From the NCBI GenBank assembly GCA_030295235.1, contig AP026164.1:992001-1056000 (forward strand): a DNA stretch of 64,000 bases, given 5' to 3'. Each line of letters begins with the position of its first letter. The first letter of the stretch is position 1. Origin of the DNA: Fistulifera solaris. Taxonomy: Eukaryota; Bacillariophyta; Bacillariophyceae; Naviculales; Stauroneidaceae. The translations under genes were made by a program, and so were the position numbers. This document shows, piece by piece, positions 38,608-50,330 of this stretch. Below the pieces are notes generated by a model, which was not told where the DNA came from, ran no database searches, and saw only the letters and a program-made list of their open reading frames with translations.

Positions 38608-39441
38608 TATGGTTAACTTCCCCAGTTTGGTACGATATGGCTTAAAATGCAAGCTGCTACTGCTATATTCTCGAGACTGATGGCATTGAACTATTGTGTC
38701 AGGTTGCCGAGCAAAAGCCATACCTGTTAGATACAACGAAATTGATCTGAAGCCGTCAGGACGAAGTTCAACCGCGCACCGCGCACCTTACGCCTTGTGA
38801 AGAGCAGATGACAGACGAAACCGCAACCACGAAAACATCCCCATCCCTATCCCCACATCATCATGTTTGAGGAAACGTGTCGTGGACGCTACCGGGTACG
38901 TAGAATCTTGTACTAGGGGCAGAATTTTAACGTTCCGGTACAGTAACAGGCAACCGATGACGGACTCCTTTGCTTGGTTGATGTTCGTTGTTCATTCCCC
39001 TTCAACAGTTCTTACTACACTGGCATTTTCAAATTATTTTTCCTCCCCTTCCGTGATCTAATGATAATATAATATTATGATCTCCCACGTCCTACGTAGT
39101 ACTGTACCTGGTACCTGGTACTGCAGCTGAGAGATATAGAGGTCCGATCTACTTTGCGTAGAAGTGTTAAATTTTATAGCACATTAAGTTTCGTATCAAT
39201 TCTACAGTATGAAAGTAAAAATAGATTCTTTATCCGGAGTGGCTAATTCGATCCGAGCAACGGAAAGGTATTACGAATGATTCGATCTAAATAACCTTCC
39301 CAAATTTTCCATGCGGTTTTAAATCCAAGATTCTACTAACAAATTTAGCCACGTCGTTGTACCGGATCGATTTTTTGCTCTCTTTTGTGGTCTTCTTTTA
39401 AGTCATTGTCATTGATCACTTGCAATTACAATTTGCTGAAG
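38608..39441. other. Intergenic region upstream of repeat-protein gene 1
   Basis: About 830 bp. It contains the half-copy of an inverted-repeat element (38883-38935) and a GTACC-rich palindromic stretch (39096-39125). No gene supported. Confidence 0.5.
38883..38935 (-). repeat. Half-copy of the 41571 inverted-repeat element
   Basis: Matches the reverse complement of 41568-41615 (GACGCTA...GTAGAATCTTGTACT...GGCAGAATTTTAACG) with a few differences. It has one arm and the core, and lies 2.7 kb away on the other side of repeat-protein gene 1. Confidence 0.65.
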
Positions 39442-39517
39442 GTATGTTCATGTTTTCGCTTCTTGGTGTCATCAGCTTAGCAATATTTTGCTTACACTCC
39501 GTGTCTTTTACCTGTAG
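39442..39517 (+). other. Putative 5'UTR intron directly before the start codon
   Basis: GTATGT at 39442 and CTGTAG ending at 39517, directly followed by the ATG of repeat-protein gene 1. The second repeat gene has the same arrangement. Confidence 0.55.
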
Positions 39518-40750
39518 ATGAAGTATACACCCCTCAAAACCGCTGCTCTTTCGCTGGTCGTCTGCGCCATCATTGGAGGATCCCTCCACGCAGCTGGAAA
39601 GTTTCACACCGCTCCTGCTAGCTCGGCTAACGAGGCATCTTTTGTCGAGCGTGACTTGAGCCGTGTTGCGGACCGCGTTCGTCACAATCGCCACAACCGT
39701 CACAATCGTCACGACCGCGATCACGGACACGATGATGAAGAGCCAGTTGTTAGCTCCGGAAAGGGCAAGAAGAGTGGTAAGGGCAAGCGAAGCCTCGAGG
39801 AAGAGGAGCGCGACTTGAGCCGTGTTGCGGACCGCGTTCGTCACAATCGCCACAACCGTCACAATCGTCACGACCGCGATCACGGACACGACGATGAAGA
39901 GCCAGTTGTTAGCTCCGGAAAGGGCAAGAAGAGTGGTAAGGGCAAGCGAAGCCTCGAGGAAGAGGAGCGCGACTTGAGCCGTGTTGCGGACCGCGTTCGT
40001 CACAATCGCCACAACCGTCACAATCGTCACGACCGCGATCACGGACACGACGATGAAGAGCCAGTTGTTAGCTCCGGAAAGGGCAAGAAGAGTGGTAAGG
40101 GCAAGCGAAGCCTCGAGGAAGAGGAGCGCGACTTGAGCCGTGTTGCGGACCGCGTTCGTCACAATCGCCACAACCGTCACAATCGTCACGACCGCGATCA
40201 CGGACACGACGATGAAGAGCCAGTTGTTAGCTCCGGAAAGGGCAAGAAGAGTGGTAAGGGCAAGCGAAGCCTCGAGGAAGAGGAGCGCGACTTGAGCCGT
40301 GTTGCGGACCGCGTTCGTCACAATCGCCACAACCGTCACAATCGTCACGACCGCGATCACGGACACGATGATGAAGAGCCAGTTGTTAGCTCCGGAAAGG
40401 GCAAGAAGAGTGGTAAGGGCAAGCGAAGCCTCGAGGAGGAGGAGCGCGACTTGAGCCGTGTTGCGGACCGCGTTCGTCACAATCGCCACAACCGTCACAA
40501 TCGTCACGACCGCGATCACGGACACGACGATGAAGAGCCAGTTGTTAGCTCCGGAAAGGGCAAGAAGAGTGGTAAGGGCAAGCGAAGCCTCGAGGAAGAG
40601 GAGCGCGACTTGAGCCGTGTTGCGGACCGCGTTCGTCACAATCGCCACAACCGTCACAATCGTCACGACCGCGATCACGGACACGATGATGAAGAGCCAG
40701 TTGTTAGCTCCGGAAAGGGCAAGAAGAGTGGTAAGGGTAAAAGAGACTAA
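39518..40750 (+). CDS. Secreted Lys/His-rich tandem-repeat protein 1 (silaffin-like composition)
   Basis: A 410-residue secreted protein with no family recognised. The signal peptide (MKYTPLKTAALSLVVCAIIGGSLHA) is followed by seven repeats of 53 residues (159 bp each, from about 39649). Each repeat has four blocks: an amphipathic start RDLSRVADRV, a His/Arg/Asp block (RHN three times, then RHDRDHGHDDEEP), a Ser/Gly/Lys block SSGKGKKSGKGKR, and an acidic link SLEEEE. R-x-L triplets (RDL, RSL) flank the acidic link, and each Lys block ends in KR. Repeats are nearly identical at the DNA level, differing by a few silent changes. Lys-rich SGK blocks recall silaffins; the His block could bind metal or silica. 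The paralogue at 42201 has the same plan. Silica or cell-wall function is inference. Confidence 0.88.
   Translation: MKYTPLKTAALSLVVCAIIGGSLHAAGKFHTAPASSANEASFVERDLSRVADRVRHNRHNRHNRHDRDHGHDDEEPVVSSGKGKKSGKGKRSLEEEERDLSRVADRVRHNRHNRHNRHDRDHGHDDEEPVVSSGKGKKSGKGKRSLEEEERDLSRVADRVRHNRHNRHNRHDRDHGHDDEEPVVSSGKGKKSGKGKRSLEEEERDLSRVADRVRHNRHNRHNRHDRDHGHDDEEPVVSSGKGKKSGKGKRSLEEEERDLSRVADRVRHNRHNRHNRHDRDHGHDDEEPVVSSGKGKKSGKGKRSLEEEERDLSRVADRVRHNRHNRHNRHDRDHGHDDEEPVVSSGKGKKSGKGKRSLEEEERDLSRVADRVRHNRHNRHNRHDRDHGHDDEEPVVSSGKGKKSGKGKRD
39649..40740 (+). repeat. Tandem repeat array, 159 bp x about 7
   Basis: Exact 159 bp spacing of GACTTGAGCCGTGTTGCGG from about 39652 (39811, 39970, 40129 and on). The period is a multiple of three, so the array keeps both strands open. 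Confidence 0.95.
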
Positions 40751-41508
40751 TGTTAGATTGGTGGTGTGTTTGCACGAGGCACTATGAATAGATAACTATT
40801 CATAATCACACATCCTTATTTTAGTTGAATGTGGCGCCATTGAAAAACATTGATAGATCCCTAACTTTGAACGGTGAGTCTTGTTGAAATAAGGGATGCT
40901 AAAACATGAAAATTTTCTAGACCTAGACCCTAGTTAAAATATATATTATGATGAAAAACTTTTCCTATCCACAATGATCAATGATGGCGCCTGTAACAAA
41001 AAGCATTAAAAAGTCGGAGTATCAAAACGATCCCTCATTTCGTGACAGAAACTGCCAGTCGTCTTACTGCTTGTTGTTGATGTATGACCGCATGATTAAC
41101 TATAGGTTTTAGTAGTGGGTCTCTTGGAACTGGGCTCCCTCTAGCTAGGGAGTCCGGAGTCCGTCAAACCATCACCGGTCACCGGTCTAGATCGAGGGTG
41201 GCAAACCGCAAATAGGAAATAGGGCAAAGTCAAAGTGCATGTCATTGGTCATCGGCAAATAAGTCAGTCATCCTCAGTCGTCAGTCAATCGTCATGCCGC
41301 TTTTGTTTTTGGCCGCGATGTACTTGTAACTTGTACGCAACTACCACATTTGTCAAAACAACTCGGACGCCTATGATGACAAACATATGGATTTTTTATC
41401 AGGGATCATGACTGCCCTAGCTTGTTTCTCACTCACATCTCACATGCGCATCGGTATTCAGTCTTTAAGTCAAATTAATCATTACACAGTCACATACGTT
41501 TTACCAGC

Positions 41509-41534
41509 TACCGGTACCAGGTACCGGTACCAGC
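41509..41534. repeat. GTACC-rich palindromic microrepeat
   Basis: Overlapping GGTACC, ACCGGT and CCAGGTACC units. Similar stretches at 18717-18743, 39096-39125, 54893-54920 and 62481-62510, all between genes. Confidence 0.6.
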
Positions 41535-41570
41535 AAACCTTGACTTAAACTTTCAGCTTTCAGGGAAGGA

Positions 41571-41635
41571 CGTTAAAATTCTGCCTCCCAGTACAAGATT
41601 CTACCTAGCGTCTACGACGAGGCAGAATTTTAACG
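41571..41635. repeat. Small element with perfect 17-bp terminal inverted repeats
   Basis: CGTTAAAATTCTGCCTC at 41571-41587 and its exact reverse complement at 41619-41635, around a 31-base core. It resembles a tiny MITE or a structured hairpin. A half-copy in reverse orientation lies at 38883-38935. Confidence 0.7.
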
Positions 41636-42119
41636 CCGTTCCCACCGAGAGAAGATAACGACGTTGACCATTGACCACAGTCACTTCAGCACTTTTAAGT
41701 CTGAGAGTTTAGAGTGGCTTTGTACGTCATAGTCATTGTCATGTATCATCAACATTCTTTCAAAAATTAGAAGCAGAAACCGAAGCTTGAATCTTTGTCA
41801 TACAGTAAAGCGGAGTGTGTCTGAGCAAAATTGGTGTTGACTGCGACAAATTGATTGAGGTATAAAGAATGTAACGGAAATTTATGCATGTGGCAACATA
41901 AGTGTTCATCGTGTGTGTCGTGTTTTGAAAGTCAATTGGGGATTTCTAAACAATATTGGCAGGTTGCTGCCTAACGGTTCGAATTATTGGCGTCTCGATG
42001 ATTCGTGCACATTATTTTGCTGTTCAACACAATCTTCTTTTTACAATCATTTGCACAAATCACAATTAATCGATAAGATACAAAGAAGATCTATCAATTG
42101 CACCTTTCTCGAATCGAAG

Positions 42120-42200
42120 GTAGGTAATCGAAGCGGTGCTAGATGTCCATGAGAAATCATTCCTGATACCGCAATGTCCTCTTTTCTACTGATATGAAAG
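42120..42200 (+). other. Putative 5'UTR intron directly before the start codon
   Basis: GTAGGT at 42120 and GAAAG ending at 42200, immediately followed by the ATG of repeat-protein gene 2. Confidence 0.5.
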
Positions 42201-44126
42201 ATGAAATACAATGCTACAAAAACTGCTGTTGGGTCGCTTGTGCTGCTGGCTATCATCGGTGGATCTATCCGCGCTAGTAACCGGTTAAGCTTGTCTTCAA
42301 CCCAAGAAGTAAGCGATGAGTCAGGTCGTACACTTAGCCGCCTTGGAAGTCGCTTTCACAACCGTCATCACGGACACCACGATGAGGAGCCGGAGATCAG
42401 TTCGGGCAAGGGCAAGAAGACCGGAAAGGCCGGAAAGGGAAAGCGCAATCTTGAGGAAGAGGACCGCGATCTAGGCCGCCTGAAAGACTTCATGCACCGC
42501 GACCATGGAGACCACGGCGATCACGGACACCACGATGAGGAGCCGGAGGTCAGTTCGGGCAAGGGCAAGAAGACCGGAAAGGCCGGAAAGGGAAAGCGCA
42601 ATCTTGAGGAAGAGGACCGCGATCTAGGCCGCCTGAAAGACTTCATGCACCGCGACCATGGAGACCACGGCGATCACGGACACCACGATGAGGAGCCGGA
42701 GGTCAGTTCGGGCAAGGGCAAGAAGACCGGAAAGGCCGGAAAGGGAAAGCGCAATCTTGAGGAAGAGGACCGCGATCTAGGCCGCCTGAAAGACTTCATG
42801 CACCGCGACCATGGAGACCACGGCGATCACGGACACCACGATGAGGAGCCGGAGGTCAGTTCGGGCAAGGGCAAGAAGACCGGAAAGGCCGGAAAGGGAA
42901 AGCGCAATCTTGAGGAAGAGGACCGCGATCTAGGCCGCCTGAAAGACTTCATGCACCGCGACCATGGAGACCACGGCGATCACGGACACCACGATGAGGA
43001 GCCGGAGGTCAGTTCGGGCAAGGGCAAGAAGACCGGAAAGGCCGGAAAGGGAAAGCGCAATCTTGAGGAAGAGGACCGCGATCTAGGCCGCCTGAAAGAC
43101 TTCATGCACCGCGACCATGGAGACCACGGCGATCACGGACACCACGATGAGGAGCCGGAGGTCAGTTCGGGCAAGGGCAAGAAGACCGGAAAGGCCGGAA
43201 AGGGAAAGCGCAATCTTGAGGAAGAGGACCGCGATCTAGGCCGCCTGAAAGACTTCATGCACCGCGACCATGGAGACCACGGCGATCACGGACACCACGA
43301 TGAGGAGCCGGAGGTCAGTTCGGGCAAGGGCAAGAAGACCGGAAAGGCCGGAAAGGGAAAGCGCAATCTTGAGGAAGAGGACCGCGATCTAGGCCGCCTG
43401 AAAGACTTCATGCACCGCGACCATGGAGACCACGGCGATCACGGACACCACGATGAGGAGCCGGAGATCAGTTCGGGCAAGGGCAAGAAGACCGGAAAGG
43501 CCGGAAAGGGAAAGCGCAATCTTGAGGAAGAGGACCGCGATCTAGGCCGCCTGAAAGACTTCATGCACCGCGACCATGGAGACCACGGCGATCACGGACA
43601 CCACGATGAGGAGCCGGAGGTCAGTTCGGGCAAGGGCAAGAAGACCGGAAAGGCCGGAAAGGGAAAGCGCAATCTTGAGGAAGAGGACCGCGATCTAGGC
43701 CGCCTGAAAGACTTCATGCACCGCGACCATGGAGACCACGGCGATCACGGACACCACGATGAGGAGCCGGAGGTCAGTTCGGGCAAGGGCAAGAAGACCG
43801 GAAAGGCCGGAAAGGGAAAGCGCAATCTTGAGGAAGAGGACCGCGATCTAGGCCGCCTGAAAGACTTCATGCACCGCGACCATGGAGACCACGGCGATCA
43901 CGGACACCACGATGAGGAGCCGGAGGTCAGTTCGGGCAAGGGCAAGAAGACCGGAAAGGCCGGAAAGGGAAAGCGCAATCTTGAGGAAGAGGACCGCGAT
44001 CTAGGCCGCCTGAAAGACTTCATGCACCGCGACCATGGAGACCACGGCGATCACGGACACCACGATGAGGAGCCGGAGGTCAGTTCGGGCAAGGGCAAGA
44101 AGAGCGGAAAGGGCAAAAGAGACTAA
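42201..44126 (+). CDS. Secreted Lys/His-rich tandem-repeat protein 2 (paralogue)
   Basis: A 641-residue paralogue of the gene at 39518. The signal peptide MKYNATKTAVGSLVLLAIIGGSIRA matches gene 1 in pattern (MKYxxxKTA..SLV..AIIGGS). A diverged first half-repeat is followed by eleven repeats of 51 residues (153 bp). Each has RDLGRLKDFM, a His/Asp/Gly block (HRDHGDHGDHGHHDEEP), a Lys block (SSGKGKKTGKAGKGKR) and an acidic link NLEEED. RNL and RDL triplets flank the link. The repeats are almost identical in DNA; the clearest change is a V/I switch in EVSS/EISS, with I only in the first half-repeat and in one internal repeat (near 43467). The protein ends KKSGKGKRD, like gene 1. Family unknown; silica, cell-wall or metal binding is inference. 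Confidence 0.88.
   Translation: MKYNATKTAVGSLVLLAIIGGSIRASNRLSLSSTQEVSDESGRTLSRLGSRFHNRHHGHHDEEPEISSGKGKKTGKAGKGKRNLEEEDRDLGRLKDFMHRDHGDHGDHGHHDEEPEVSSGKGKKTGKAGKGKRNLEEEDRDLGRLKDFMHRDHGDHGDHGHHDEEPEVSSGKGKKTGKAGKGKRNLEEEDRDLGRLKDFMHRDHGDHGDHGHHDEEPEVSSGKGKKTGKAGKGKRNLEEEDRDLGRLKDFMHRDHGDHGDHGHHDEEPEVSSGKGKKTGKAGKGKRNLEEEDRDLGRLKDFMHRDHGDHGDHGHHDEEPEVSSGKGKKTGKAGKGKRNLEEEDRDLGRLKDFMHRDHGDHGDHGHHDEEPEVSSGKGKKTGKAGKGKRNLEEEDRDLGRLKDFMHRDHGDHGDHGHHDEEPEISSGKGKKTGKAGKGKRNLEEEDRDLGRLKDFMHRDHGDHGDHGHHDEEPEVSSGKGKKTGKAGKGKRNLEEEDRDLGRLKDFMHRDHGDHGDHGHHDEEPEVSSGKGKKTGKAGKGKRNLEEEDRDLGRLKDFMHRDHGDHGDHGHHDEEPEVSSGKGKKTGKAGKGKRNLEEEDRDLGRLKDFMHRDHGDHGDHGHHDEEPEVSSGKGKKSGKGKRD
42468..44120 (+). repeat. 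Tandem repeat array, 153 bp x 11
   Basis: CTAGGCCGCCTGAAAGAC recurs at 42471, 42624, 42777 and so on to 44001, exactly 153 bp apart. Confidence 0.95.
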
Positions 44127-44740
44127 GATGACTAGACCAGCGACTTGCTAGAGTGACGATCACTTGCATAACAACGGCAGTGCGACTACGGTACTTTGTC
44201 CATCGGTTGAAATATATCTCATCCCATAATAGTAATGATAATAGATATTTCATGTGTTTCTTTTCATTGTGTGCTTCAGAATCCTGCTTGTTGATTAGCA
44301 ATCCCACGGTTTTCACGATTTGGTTGAGGTACCGCAACAGTTATATTGCAACCTTCAATAAACGCCGATAACGATTATTCCTATTATATGCACTCTATAT
44401 GACTTGTCCATCAAATAATAAGATTATGTTCGTCGTTTCGCCATTTACCACACGCTCTGTGAGATGGAGCTACAAGCAGCTACATGTAAGGAGAGGACTA
44501 AAATTAGGAGAGTCCTTTTAAAACCGGTACGATTACTGGACACTACAGCGGAGAGTGTGAAAATAACCGTTCTGGCGATTGCGTCATTTTGTCGTGCTGA
44601 AAACTGTCGTTGAAAATGTGAACTCGACTTAGACAACAACCATGGGCTTCGGTCATTGAAATCGGAAAGCGAGTCCTTTCAAAGAACTGATTATATCCAT
44701 TGTTTTCTCCAAGAACTGGTTTTGCTGATAATTGGAGATC
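44127..44740. other. Intergenic region
   Basis: About 610 bp between repeat-protein gene 2 and the glycosyltransferase gene. AT-rich; no gene supported. Confidence 0.5.
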
Positions 44741-46390
44741 ATGGCACTCGCTTCGAAGCGCAACAATGCCTCCAGCATGGAGAGAATCGTTGGCCTGTCG
44801 TTGCTGATATTGCTCGGTCTTTATTGCATGCTGACTGTCTTTGCGTATTACAAAGTATCACAATCGGACCCTGGTTTACCTCTAGTGCAATCTACTTTTG
44901 TGACTGCCGCTTCCTCAAACGAAGTGCCTTATCAACGGCAAATGGTTGCAGATACGAATAAAATTTCTAGCATCAGCGAACTGCAGAATGCTTTTCCGAT
45001 TTACGTCGGCAAGGACGTGGAAACAATCATTCATCCCGGAGTACAAGTCTTGTCGCCTACCGCCCTTACAAAATGGCCCGACGATCTCCCGAAAAATATG
45101 TCAGTACCGCAGTTTTTCGACGATTCTCATGGTCACTTGTACGGTGGGTCCATCCGCGAATTCTTGGGGAATAATGGCGAAAAACTCATCACACCGGAAC
45201 AGGCCGCAAAGATAGGCAGTAAAATAACTGTTAGAGGTAAAGAAGTGGAAACGATTTATTGTTCCGTGGCTTCTTATCGCGATCCGGAATGCTCCGGGAC
45301 CGTGGCGGACGTCTTTGAACGAGCGGAATACCCGGAACGAATTCGTGTTGCCATTTTGGACCAACGAGCCGAAGGTGACCCAGTATGCGGTGCTGCCGAT
45401 TGCGACGCAGACCCGAATCAGACGCTTTGCAAGTATGCCCATCTGATCGAACACACGTCTTTGGACGCTCGTCTCTCGTGCGGTCCGGTATTTGCTCGCC
45501 ATTTGGCTCACCGTCACTATCGAGGTGAATACTTCGCTATGCAGATCGACTCACATGTACGCTTCATTGAAAACTGGGACAGTAAGATTGTCGGATTTTG
45601 GCATTCTGCGAACAACGAAATGGCTGTTCTCACTACGTATCTTTCTGACATAAATGGCTCGATCGACCCGATTACTCACGAATCTCTGCACAAAACTCGC
45701 CCTATCATGTGCGCATCCGATTATGAAGGTAATGGCGAATATAGACATCTGCGACACGGCCAACAGCCTGAAGGTATTCCCATGATTAAAGGAGAACCAA
45801 CGTTAGAGCCTTTCTGGGCGGCCGGGTTTTCATTTTCTCGCGGTCATTTTGTCATCCAGGTCCCTTATGATATGTATCTGCCCATGGTATTTCAAGGCGA
45901 AGAAATCAGCATCGGGCTGCGTGGATTTACTTTCGGGTACGATTATTACACCCCTGAGGAAGGTGTGTGCTTCCATATGTATGCAATCAAAGAAAATGAA
46001 GCGAAGAGGAAGAAAGTTCCTTTGTTTTGGGAGAATAGTTCAATGTACACCGGAGTCGGAATGAAAGCGATGCGCCGATTAAACACAATAATTGGGATGG
46101 AAAACTACCCACGAGATCAATGGCAGACTGACGAAGAGGAGAAATATGGCCTGGGAAAAGTTCGGACCACGCGAAAATTCTTCGACGTGTTTGGCATTCA
46201 TCCCGAGAAGCACACGGTTGAGCAACATTTATGTCGTTTTGTGGGCCAGCCAATGATGAAAGAATTGAAACCGCATTTACGTTCAGATCGCATGGGTATC
46301 GACTACGATTCTGTCACATATCGCTACGTGGACACCGGCTCAGTCAACAACAAACACATTCCAGTAGGTGTGAAGAAGGCTGCGGCATAA
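44741..46390 (+). CDS. GT60-type N-acetylglucosaminyltransferase (type II membrane protein)
   Basis: Resembles the GlcNAc-transferase family (PF11397, GT60) that includes the Skp1-hydroxyproline GlcNAc-transferase. A single N-terminal membrane anchor (ERIVGLSLLILLGLYCMLTVF, about 14-34) precedes a lumenal catalytic domain. That domain starts ETIYCSVASYRDPECSGTV and continues with RIRVAILDQ, SCGPVFARHLAHRHYRGEYFAMQIDSH (the DSH metal motif), FWAAGFSFSRG, FQGEEISIGLRGFTFGYDYY and VCFHMY. ATG at 44741 is used; the frame extends 9 bases upstream only with TTG. Length is 549 residues, no intron. The membrane anchor suggests a Golgi enzyme rather than a cytosolic Skp1 modifier, so the acceptor is uncertain. 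Confidence 0.9.
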   Translation: MALASKRNNASSMERIVGLSLLILLGLYCMLTVFAYYKVSQSDPGLPLVQSTFVTAASSNEVPYQRQMVADTNKISSISELQNAFPIYVGKDVETIIHPGVQVLSPTALTKWPDDLPKNMSVPQFFDDSHGHLYGGSIREFLGNNGEKLITPEQAAKIGSKITVRGKEVETIYCSVASYRDPECSGTVADVFERAEYPERIRVAILDQRAEGDPVCGAADCDADPNQTLCKYAHLIEHTSLDARLSCGPVFARHLAHRHYRGEYFAMQIDSHVRFIENWDSKIVGFWHSANNEMAVLTTYLSDINGSIDPITHESLHKTRPIMCASDYEGNGEYRHLRHGQQPEGIPMIKGEPTLEPFWAAGFSFSRGHFVIQVPYDMYLPMVFQGEEISIGLRGFTFGYDYYTPEEGVCFHMYAIKENEAKRKKVPLFWENSSMYTGVGMKAMRRLNTIIGMENYPRDQWQTDEEEKYGLGKVRTTRKFFDVFGIHPEKHTVEQHLCRFVGQPMMKELKPHLRSDRMGIDYDSVTYRYVDTGSVNNKHIPVGVKKAAA

Positions 46391-48238: not shown

Positions 48239-49881
48239 TTACAAAGCAATGAATACGATTCCAATCCCGAGAGCAGCAATGAATGAATTTAACACCTGCT
48301 GCAAGGCAAAGGAACCCCCTCTTCGTTTACTGGAACTGAACTAGGCTCGTCCGAAGCAGGCTGAGGGGCTGTTGGTTCTCCTGTAGTACCTTCAATTGGC
48401 TCCGTAGTGGGGACAGTAGCGCTAGGAGAAGTAAGATCAGATGTTGGAGCCGGAGTAACAGCAATTGTAGGAGTGGGTCCACTCGTTTCAGGATCCGAAG
48501 AAGAGAACGAAGGAAAGTCCGAGGTCATGGTCACCGCAGGCGAGGGAAAGTCCGAGACGCCAGTGCTATCGGAACTGGGCGCCATCGTTGCGGGCTGTGT
48601 ACTTGGATCGCGTGTTGCGCCTTGCTGTTGAGGAACGACAGTAATCGGAGTGTCCACCATAAAATTCGAGGTCCAAAAGTCTGTAGCGGCATGCGATAGT
48701 CCTGGCTCAGCAGTAGATCCCTCGGGAATTCCAGGATTAATCACCCGACCCTCAAATATTGGTAATTCGTTATGCAGAATCCAGAATTGGAACGGTCTGT
48801 CTAGTTGCATTAATGCAGGCGCCGTGGGTTCAGGAAGTGATTCGACAACACCAATGGCAGTTACAGCAGCAGCTTCGACGCCTTCCTCATTCACGTCAAT
48901 GACAGTCTTTTGAATGATGAAATCAATGAAGGCGCCACATGATCCCTCACGCACACATAAACCACCCACGAACGGAGCGCGCAAGTTCAGATTTTGCAGA
49001 GCCGTTTCGAGGCTGGACTCGTATGTTGATTCGAACTTGAACTTGGGAAGGGCCAATGCAACTCGTGTAATACTGAGCTGGGGCATCGCCGTCACCAATT
49101 CAGCCGCTGAGAGTGATGGAAGTTCGCCTTCGACGAGAGAAGCAGCAAAGACCATGGACAACCCTTGAGTCGTCTCACTGCCACCGAAGAACTCCATTTT
49201 CACTATTTGATAGTTCGTAACAGCAGTATCGGAATACGGGAGGAACTCTACCTTGTGCATAAAATGAGCATCTGTTCCAGCAAAGCTATCCAGTGTTGTT
49301 TGAAAAGCCACAAAAGGAAGTCTCCATGCTGCTTTCAAGTAAATGGAGTTCACAGCAAGAATAATCCATCCCGGATTGACCTCCTGAACAACAGAATCAA
49401 TGAGTCCATTGGTACTATTCGAAACCCATGCGTTGATTGTGTCGGCCGCTGTAGGGTCGCTGAAATCAATGGGTTGTACAAAATCTTGTACCACTGCTTG
49501 GTACGTGGAATTCAACGCGACGTTGTTGTTGGCGTATATACGATTGGCGATGCTGACCACTGGATCTTGAAACTCACAGCTTTCACCATCGTAACAGGCT
49601 CCCTGATACAGCGTCGACACTTCATTCCCAGCCCAATGTAACTTGGGTTCGCTAAAGCCAAACACCGACTCCATCTCCGTCTTGGATTCTCCGATAGCGC
49701 TGGTGTACAATAAATCAAACGCCATCGAAATTCCCAACGAAGAGGTACAATCATTCGTCTCTTCCGAGTACATTTCCGCCGAAAGATTATCACTGAAGGT
49801 GATCAGTTGCTCTGCCACCGACCCACGAGCATAGTGGTTGGTGAAAATACTCAAGATAAGGATAGAGCGGTCGAACTTCAT
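48239..49881 (-). CDS. Secreted serpin with Ser/Thr/Pro tail and a likely GPI-anchor signal (one frame break)
   Basis: Serine-protease inhibitor fold. The signal peptide starts at ATG 49879-49881 (MKFDRSILILSIFTN). Serpin landmarks include SSLGISMAFDLLY, NRIYANNN, WVSNSTNGLID, LAVNSIYLKAAW and VALALPKFKFES. The hinge VNEEGVEAAAVTA (about 328) has small residues, as in inhibitory members, and FQFWILHNELPIFEGRV follows. A 140-residue tail rich in T, S and P resembles a mucin-like stalk. The frame as read ends at 48289. One extra base at CCCCC 48315-48319 instead continues to TAA 48239-48241, adding small residues (EEGGS) and a hydrophobic end (SFIAALGIGIVFIAL), the layout of a GPI-anchor signal. 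Corrected length is 547. The serpin call is firm; the anchor is inference. Confidence 0.9.
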
Positions 49882-50330
49882 GGTTGCAGATAATTGCAGA
49901 CTTTTAAACACCAATTGCGATATTTGTTCGTTGTATGGCTTCGTATATTCGTGTCGTTTCACAATGAAATAATCTTAACTTGAAATTATGAGAAGCGACT
50001 CGGAACTATTTACGATGCACGATAGAGAGAGAGGAGGGGACTTTTTGCCAGGACCCCGTTCGGATATTGTTGGTTAACGTCCAAAATACCAGCGTGTCAA
50101 CGGAACAAAGGGTGTTTCATACTATAGGTGTCGCTGGCCTTTTTTTTCGAAACGTGCGTTCGGAATGTCACGAACTTACAAAACGACTGATTTCGAAATA
50201 ATACTCCGTTCCGAATCATGTTTGAACTTTTGAACCCCAACATTATCCTTGAACAGAACTTCTTTCTCCGACCAATAGCCAAATACGGAGTAGAACAAGA
50301 TTTTAGTCTATCTCTATTTAACAACAACTA
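49882..50330. other. Intergenic region
   Basis: About 450 bp between the serpin start and the end of the LETM1-like gene. AT-rich; no gene supported. Confidence 0.5.

Follow-up and report, generated by a model that had tools for sequence, protein, structure and literature searches.

Two tandem repeat polyprotein genes of Fistulifera solaris as candidate precursors of biosilica-associated peptides released at R-x-L sites

Gene pair and module arrays

In a window of 64,000 nucleotides from the diatom Fistulifera solaris (C4:992001-1056000, within a searched genome of 51.7 Mb in 61 contigs), two adjacent genes on the forward strand, gene 1 and gene 2, encode repeat polyproteins. Modules with a His/Asp block and a Lys-rich SGK block are separated by short acidic links that carry an R-x-L triplet at each end. 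Judging from these sequences, and with moderate confidence, we take both genes to be precursors of biosilica-associated peptides that would be released at the R-x-L sites.

Both open reading frames (ORFs) start with ATG and are unbroken in the ORF listing (410 amino acids for gene 1 and 641 for gene 2), and their signal-peptide-like starts are alike (MKYTPLKTAALSLVVCAIIGGSLHA in gene 1, MKYNATKTAVGSLVLLAIIGGSIRA in gene 2). The initial annotation, which described two adjacent secreted-looking paralogues with matching starts, is thus borne out in position and strand. Signal peptides were judged by hydrophobic core and the -3/-1 rule only, by which the end at residue 25 is one among seven candidates in gene 1 (LHA) and one among five in gene 2 (IRA). 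The features are as follows:

39518..40750, + strand: gene 1 (A_C4), predicted secreted repeat polyprotein, 410 amino acids, 7 modules (ORF, Tandem Repeats Finder, count of SGK blocks)
39518..39592, + strand: gene 1 predicted signal peptide, residues 1-25 (-3/-1 rule; hydropathy maximum 3.03 over 10 residues)
39593..39658, + strand: gene 1 putative propeptide, residues 26-47, ending R-D-L (RDL at 45-47)
39659..40747, + strand: gene 1 module array, SRVADRVRHNRHNRHNRHDRDHGHDDEEPVVSSGKGKKSGKGK units with linker RSLEEEERDL (six exact units of 53 amino acids; Tandem Repeats Finder 39647-40737)
39788..39817, + strand: gene 1 first acidic link of six, RSLEEEERDL, R-x-L at each end (RSL at residue 91, RDL at 98)
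42201..44126, + strand: gene 2 (B_C4), predicted secreted repeat polyprotein, 641 amino acids, 12 SGK modules (ORF, Tandem Repeats Finder, count of SGK blocks)
42201..42275, + strand: gene 2 predicted signal peptide, residues 1-25 (-3/-1 rule; hydropathy maximum 2.94)
42276..42335, + strand: gene 2 putative propeptide, residues 26-45, ending R-T-L (RTL at 43-45)
42336..44123, + strand: gene 2 array, a divergent module 1 followed by 11 GRLKDFMHRDHGDHGDHGHHDEEPEVSSGKGKKTGKAGKGK-type modules with linker RNLEEEDRDL (nine exact units of 51 amino acids; Tandem Repeats Finder 42367-44112)
42444..42473, + strand: gene 2 first acidic link of 11, RNLEEEDRDL, R-x-L at each end (RNL at residue 82, RDL at 89)

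Tandem Repeats Finder reports 6.9 copies of 159 nucleotides in gene 1 and 11.4 copies of 153 nucleotides in gene 2, each with 99% matches, corresponding to modules of 53 and 51 amino acids. SGK blocks number 7 and 12. The repeat counts given earlier (7 and 11) therefore hold for gene 1, but in gene 2 a short divergent module precedes the 11, which brings the total to 12. Likewise, an acidic link between two R-x-L triplets is found at all internal junctions (6/6 in gene 1, 11/11 in gene 2), whereas the terminal module lacks a link in both genes and finishes with KGKRD-stop; that every repeat has such a link is consequently true for the internal repeats only. The antisense strand of gene 1 is open as well (39416-40684, - strand, 422 amino acids, hydrophobic repeats), probably as a by-product of an in-frame repeat without a reverse-strand stop.

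Paralogue family and repeat homogenisation

Genome searches and reading of the loci revealed at least five paralogues, which share an MKY start and contain 1 to 18 modules; this family size is a lower bound, because the searches score the best candidates only. F. solaris is allodiploid, and the contig pairs that carry the family (C3/C4, C23/C24 and C40/C41) are read as its two subgenomes. The tandem pair of the initial annotation is present, but it belongs to this wider family, whose members are monomers or polyproteins, and a membrane-anchored protein has a similar module. The paralogues are:

A (gene 1): 7 modules on C4 and 6 on C3; C3 homoeologue at C3:1109857-1110918, 354 amino acids
B (gene 2): 12 modules on C4 and 9 on C3; C3 frame broken near the propeptide
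C, on C23/C24: 509 and 649 amino acids, 13 and 18 modules, R-E-L links
D, on C40/C41: 195 and 201 amino acids, one His/Asp block and a long SGK tail, non-repeat
E, adjoining D: 96 and 108 amino acids, a single module

On C3 the frame of gene 2 is broken by one additional base within an A-run near the propeptide, which may be an assembly error or, alternatively, a real loss; this copy was counted from its RTL onward only. D and E, too, lie in tandem, and E looks like the basic unit that is multiplied in A, B and C. The C-terminal tails of paralogue C differ between C23 (L006 238-400 (-)) and C24 (KKKWQGKQRKEILRRTL.. against KKSGKGSKGKKL), as if frame-shifted.

Outside the five-paralogue counts are the loci C3:324117/C4:305559, C5/C6, C13/C14, C21/C22, C23/C24 (40-42 kb), C25 and C35. 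The C23/C24 locus at 40-42 kb was rejected as a family member, being an ion-channel-like chance match. The small ORFs at C3:324117 (L053) and C4:305559 (L056) span about 138 amino acids from Met and show a signal-peptide-like start, RKL and RQL, a His/Asp block, an acidic run and KKGGKGGKGG; their block order is as in the family and their start is different.

Within each gene the repeats share 98.9% (A_C4), 97.0% (A_C3), 99.8% (B_C4) and 96.9% (B_C3) of their nucleotides, against 90.9% (A) and 93.6% (B) between the units of homoeologues. Hence the repeats of each gene evolve in concert while the protein sequence is held. The units compared are short (42-53 codons): between modal units without the link, the A homoeologues differ by 9 synonymous (28.5 sites) and 0 non-synonymous changes (103.5 sites), the B homoeologues by 8 (25.5 sites) and 1 (100.5 sites). 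This comparison dropped one shortened A_C3 unit (of 6) for the identities, and the last (of 11) together with the divergent first unit of gene 2. With the link included (6, 5, 10 and 7 units), the means are 14.3/33.2 synonymous and 1.4/125.8 non-synonymous for A (30 pairs), and 6.3/30.9 and 2.2/122.1 for B (70 pairs). The starts of the homoeologues give 12/38.8 synonymous and 4/111.2 non-synonymous for A, and 8/47.8 and 1/132.2 for C.

These figures bear on the suggestion that the arrays are low-complexity expansions without selected function, or mis-called coding sequence, which we regard as highly improbable. It is true that repeat arrays readily expand, that gene 1 is open on its reverse strand too and that the reading frame of gene 2 is broken on C3. 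However, non-synonymous changes are few although the modal units are about 0.4 apart at synonymous sites, the genes are retained on both subgenomes and the start is conserved across the five paralogues.

The membrane-anchored protein with a similar module (RHDRHDGHDGGHDGG..HHDDDDDYSSSGKGKKGKGG..GKKGKRVRNRKL) is encoded on C38/C39; besides PSDVPSD repeats and several R-x-L it has a domain containing Cys and, at the C-terminus, a hydrophobic helix. A database search with it returned P0001 (618 amino acids) as sole match, with E 2.9e-102 and 63% over the queried part (57% overall). At the module position P0001 keeps FGHHDRHDRHDHGHDRDHGHGQTYSSKGKKSKKSKK..KKGKRARQLKSRQL and the acidic run is missing; its best places in the present genome are on C39 and C38 (68 and 67%), and it is the sole evidence in this analysis for the module beyond F. 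solaris. A possibly related stretch lies upstream of the C38/C39 gene on the same contigs.

R-x-L sites, charge and competing explanations

A, B and C contain 89 internal R-x-L sites over both subgenomes, and the counts of blocks and junctions leave none missing; given the homogenised repeats, these are not 89 independent events. Leu residues after residue 30 lie in R-x-L in 13/13 cases for A_C4, 11/12 for A_C3, 23/36 for B_C4 and 17/26 for the readable part of B_C3, in 14/22 and 18/24 for C, and in 1/2 and 1/1 for each copy of D and E, respectively. Shuffles of one unit yield p values for R-x-L enrichment of 0.027 (A), 0.0145 (B) and 0.033 (C); those for genes 1 and 2 are modest alone. Stronger evidence against chance comes from the mostly synonymous differences between homoeologous units and from the recurrence of R-x-L in divergent paralogues. 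All five paralogues carry an R-x-L at residue 32-51, between the signal peptide and the first His block, with x being D, T, R, L and T: FVER-DL (A), ESGR-TL (B), GGLR-RL (C), ETER-LL/EPER-LL (D) and NEDR-TL/AEDR-TL (E). The chance of any R-x-L per propeptide region is 0.12-0.48 and the joint chance over five paralogues 0.003 (regions delimited by eye, using the own letters of each region and the larger value per pair).

Since KGKR ends every module of genes 1 and 2 (7 and 12 copies) and occurs in the non-repeat paralogue D too, the chains might instead be precursors of diffusible signalling or antimicrobial peptides, cut after KGKR by a Kex2/furin-type protease. We consider this very unlikely. 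Paralogue C loses the Lys-Arg pair in three modules (KGDR-EL in two on C23, KGER-EL in one on C24) yet keeps R-E-L, which is why dibasic processing is ranked low; moreover, the propeptide sites of 4/5 paralogues are not dibasic, and the released peptide would be long, of low complexity and multiply copied, as in silaffins. By their sequences, it is R-x-L rather than Lys-Arg that is conserved in this family.

It is also unlikely that a biosilica or wall protein remains uncut between its modules, with only the propeptide R-x-L in use and the intact chain acting as a polyampholyte matrix or girdle-band component. On that view, module duplication would have spread the propeptide junction through the chain and so produced the internal triplets; homogenisation within each gene fits one ancestral junction copied everywhere, D and E possess a single R-x-L, and insoluble protein matrices are known in diatoms (cingulins, PMC4557024). 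Nevertheless, both subgenomes retain R-x-L although x (RNL/RSL) and the link vary, the links of A_C3 reading EEEER, EEKDR and EEQDR with R-x-L untouched, and the double-sided arrangement is shared by differently built polyproteins on C7.

One of these C7 genes (299 amino acids) has nine SGKEHGHDEPEESSKSKD His/Asp/Lys units, each flanked by R-x-L on both sides, and 18/19 Leu after residue 45 lie in R-x-L (shuffle p 0.003); its C8 copy was seen as a match only. Similarity to paralogue C is weak (E 1.6e-4), though distant kinship to the family is possible, as the gene was first found through that match. At a second C7 locus, HGHDNDG..HGHDGH units are joined by RSLFDRSL links. Double R-x-L links round His/Asp units may thus have had several origins, or have spread within the genome. 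The C7 polyproteins (L072 1148-2047 (-); L084; matches on C8 too), with links RALFSRGL and RSLFDRSL, start with a polar N-terminus followed by a signal-anchor-like helix.

The published primer of F. solaris frustulin1 (fso:g20405; PMC4712521) matched C29 at 30/30 bases, which identifies the host as this diatom; 23 matches to the silicon-transporter family PF03842 agree with that. As a control from the same genome, frustulin1, a GFP-displayed cell-wall anchor (PMC4712521), has RKL at residue 34, shortly past the signal peptide. Ten SGK-rich open stretches were read, exclusive of first exons, at six further loci: six of them (C13/C14, C21/C22) show NLRRL/NLRHL at the start or within nine residues, and two more, on C21 and C22, lack R-x-L and resemble frame-shifted continuations. 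The SGKGK-rich exons on C21/C22 and C13/C14 (L064-L067) form another set of candidate R-x-L wall proteins.

Each module contains 6 His, and its charge depends on pH. Computed with textbook pKa for otherwise unmodified peptides, the A module without link has a charge of +10.7 at pH 5.5 and +4.6 at pH 8.1 (+7.9 and +1.6 with link), the B module +6.7 and +0.6 (+3.9 and -2.4 with link). With all Ser phosphorylated, +5.5 (A) and +4.2 (B) are left at pH 5.5. Native silaffin is active at pH 5-5.5 and the silica deposition vesicle is acidic, according to PMC4557024.

The same His content and pH-dependent charge, together with the secretory start, would also suit a secreted binder of metals (Zn, Cu, Ni, Fe), or an adhesive or mucilage polyelectrolyte that interacts with anionic polysaccharide, silica not being directly involved. 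Repeat adhesives are common in benthic diatoms, which counts for this explanation. We nonetheless rate it as quite unlikely: Lys/Ser/Gly clusters with an R-x-L propeptide mark silica-associated proteins, frustulin1 of this genome has an R-x-L propeptide, and a KG-repeat protein of Amphora, first screened as an adhesive, proved to be a wall protein (PMC4220933).

Two further genes neighbour the pair. Directly 3' of gene 2 lies an N-acetylglucosamine (GlcNAc) glycosyltransferase-like gene (44732-46390, + strand; PF11397, E 2e-59; no match in the PDB search), and about 4 kb off the repeat genes a serpin gene of the protease-inhibitor family (48289-49962, - strand; PF00079, E 1.7e-56).

Searches, weighing of the evidence and known systems

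Gene 1 has no match in Pfam and one below its cut-off in NCBIfam. For gene 2, DUF4599 in Pfam reaches 42 bits (cut-off 34) with no stretch passing alone, and NCBIfam and PDB give none. The Pfam candidates DUF4599 and EIAV_Rev (gene 2) and the NCBIfam RiPP match (gene 1) were set aside as low-complexity noise. Scans of viral contigs produced 5 pattern matches for the C38 protein and 71 for gene 1, none of them confirmed. Within the open-licence literature (titles, abstracts, passages) no described family with this block order was recognised, and the motif text SGKGK together with 'diatom' retrieved no paper. The initial claim of an undescribed block order stands to that extent, except that a functional analogue of the His/Asp block is described from sponge glassin, which leaves the combination as the unusual part. 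It is plausible, on sequence grounds, that the combination of blocks is new here while the kind of protein is already known.

Genes 1 and 2 share with silaffins a signal-peptide-like start, an R-x-L propeptide site (RDL 45, RTL 43) and units ended by a putatively removable R-x-L-type sequence (6/6 and 11/11). In gene 2, 11 windows contain a strict pentalysine cluster, defined as 5 non-consecutive Lys in 12-14 amino acids (e.g. KGKKTGKAGKGK). R-x-L is documented in biosilica proteins (PMC4557024, PMC5525289, PMC5647440), KXXK is described (PMC4557024), and Lys-rich blocks (LERs, pentalysine clusters) have been tried as silica-targeting signals in Thalassiosira; in one cingulin two clusters were mutated or deleted with no mis-localisation (PMC9650480). 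The silaffin-type likeness noted initially is therefore sound as regards R-x-L and Lys-rich blocks of the documented kind, but the strict screens fail for gene 1, and silaffin identity of the two genes is not established by their sequences. Marks of other wall proteins are absent: there is no Trp in either gene and Tyr at residue 3 only (in cingulins, Trp/Tyr-rich regions alternate with KXXK), at pH 5.5 the modules have a net positive charge and a link has at most one Ser (silacidins: acidic Ser-rich peptides), gene 1 has one Cys (residue 16, signal peptide) and gene 2 none (frustulins: acidic cysteine-rich domains), and both end polar by eye, in ..SGKGKRD (SAP and SiMat7-like proteins: C-terminal transmembrane helix).

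If the genes encode precursors of biosilica-associated peptides, as we favour, the signal peptide would direct the chain to the secretory path, and the propeptide, which ends in the observed R-x-L, would be removed as proposed for silaffins and silicanin. A diatom R-x-L protease would cut at the sites seen on both sides of each acidic link, so that 7 and 12 polyampholyte peptides, mostly near-identical, are freed while the EEEE/EEED spacers are lost. Inside the silica deposition vesicle, silica may be bound or condensed jointly by the His/Asp block and the Lys cluster, in which Lys would probably be modified and Ser phosphorylated. The vesicle being acidic, protonated His would make the gene 1 and 2 peptides strongly cationic, going by computed charge, and the acidic links might keep the precursor nearer neutral until cutting and acidification activate it. 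Tandem amplification and concerted evolution would have raised the peptide dose, with purifying selection holding the sequence.

A number of results weigh against this interpretation. The one-unit shuffle p values are just 0.01-0.03, and the junctions of homogenised repeats are not independent. KGKR is also kept at C-termini where no Leu follows (A, B, D), so that this basic end may be constrained independently. Not all paralogues have the double-cut link: C carries one R-x-L per unit, and D and E one per whole protein. 'Strongly cationic' cannot be extended to paralogue C, whose module is weakly charged (+2.9 at pH 5.5, -0.5 at pH 8.1; -0.9 at pH 5.5 with all Ser phosphorylated). The D start (14.5/42.4 synonymous) is less constrained, with 12.5 non-synonymous changes over 125.6 sites. 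Just 5/41 Leu of the C38 protein lie in R-x-L, and the SGK-rich stretches on C25 and C35, outside the family, lack R-x-L where the stretch read begins (none at all on C25; at residues 228 and 461 only on C35). Gene 1 contains no pentalysine window, its 5 Lys spanning 9 residues with one KK, and the screen for spaced KXXK (PMC5501833: repeated KXXK, X = S/G, 1-6 residues apart) finds 0 pairs in genes 1 and 2 and only one KXXK(S/G), in gene 2; C_C24 and D_C41 have one pair each. A database search with whole gene 1 found no homologue at E 0.001 among the 8000 candidates sharing most words, which is taken as low-complexity swamping, and one with residues 1-80 none at E 0.01 among 83 candidates. 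Finally, R-x-L processing is called unproven in PMC5647440.

More tentatively, and doubtful as it stands, the genes may encode a self-silenced polyprotein that joins a silaffin-like Lys cluster and a glassin-like His/Asp block to a removable polyanionic spacer, which would lie between two R-x-L cuts and hold the charge of the precursor close to balance in the secretory path, a protease- and pH-gated silica switch whose module recurs in monomeric, polymeric and membrane-anchored proteins. If true, cutting and acidification would free many equal, strongly cationic peptides simultaneously. Should the module work as proposed, sponge-glassin His/Asp chemistry and silaffin Lys chemistry would be united in one peptide, which would be useful for silica materials. 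Processing of diatom wall precursors at R-x-L is widely proposed, but PMC5525289 terms the protease 'yet unknown'; with its 23 R-x-L sites, its many near-identical products and its natural single-position variants, a precursor of this kind offers a ready substrate to find it. The biosilica reading is testable directly in F. solaris, which is transformable and has a cell-surface display system (PMC4712521).

By analogy, the genes might function as silaffin-1-type repeat precursors that also contain a glassin-like block and acidic links with a cut on each side. The silacidin precursor of Thalassiosira pseudonana is likewise repetitive and cut into many peptides (PMC4557024), but silacidins are acidic and phosphoserine-rich whereas the modules here carry a net positive charge at pH 5.5 and acidity is confined to a short link. 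Silaffin-like/KXXK proteins and cingulins of T. pseudonana share Ser/Gly-spaced Lys clusters, frequent R-x-L and low complexity (PMC5501833, PMC9650480); they differ from the present genes, which lack Trp/Tyr-rich blocks and strict KXXK spacing, and the excerpted descriptions mention no His/Asp block. Among silicalemma proteins, the SiMat7-like ones (PMC5501833) match by description the architecture of the C38/C39 protein (signal peptide, R-x-L, C-terminal transmembrane helix), which was considered as a possible member, while genes 1 and 2, unlike these and SAPs, have no such helix by eye. Silaffin-1 (Sil1p) of Cylindrotheca fusiformis likewise has a signal peptide, an N-terminal R-x-L and tandem basic units, the RRIL/RRNL unit ends being missing in its mature peptides (PMC4557024), and its R5 unit SSKKSGSYSGSKGSKRRIL (PMC9866965 Table 1) compares with SSGKGKKSGKGKRSL in the genes here. 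In contrast to Sil1p, each unit here additionally has a His/Asp block, and its acidic link brings a second R-x-L; the sites are KR-x-L rather than RRIL/RRNL, the modules have no Tyr, and the acidic part forms short links between units instead of one N-terminal domain. Glassin of the glass sponge Euplectella is an animal protein with Pro- and Thr-rich domains, and no R-x-L links are mentioned in the excerpts; the likeness is functional, judged by described composition alone, in that glassin too is a tandem repeat with a His/Asp-rich domain needed for silica formation (PMC10772126, PMC11733937).

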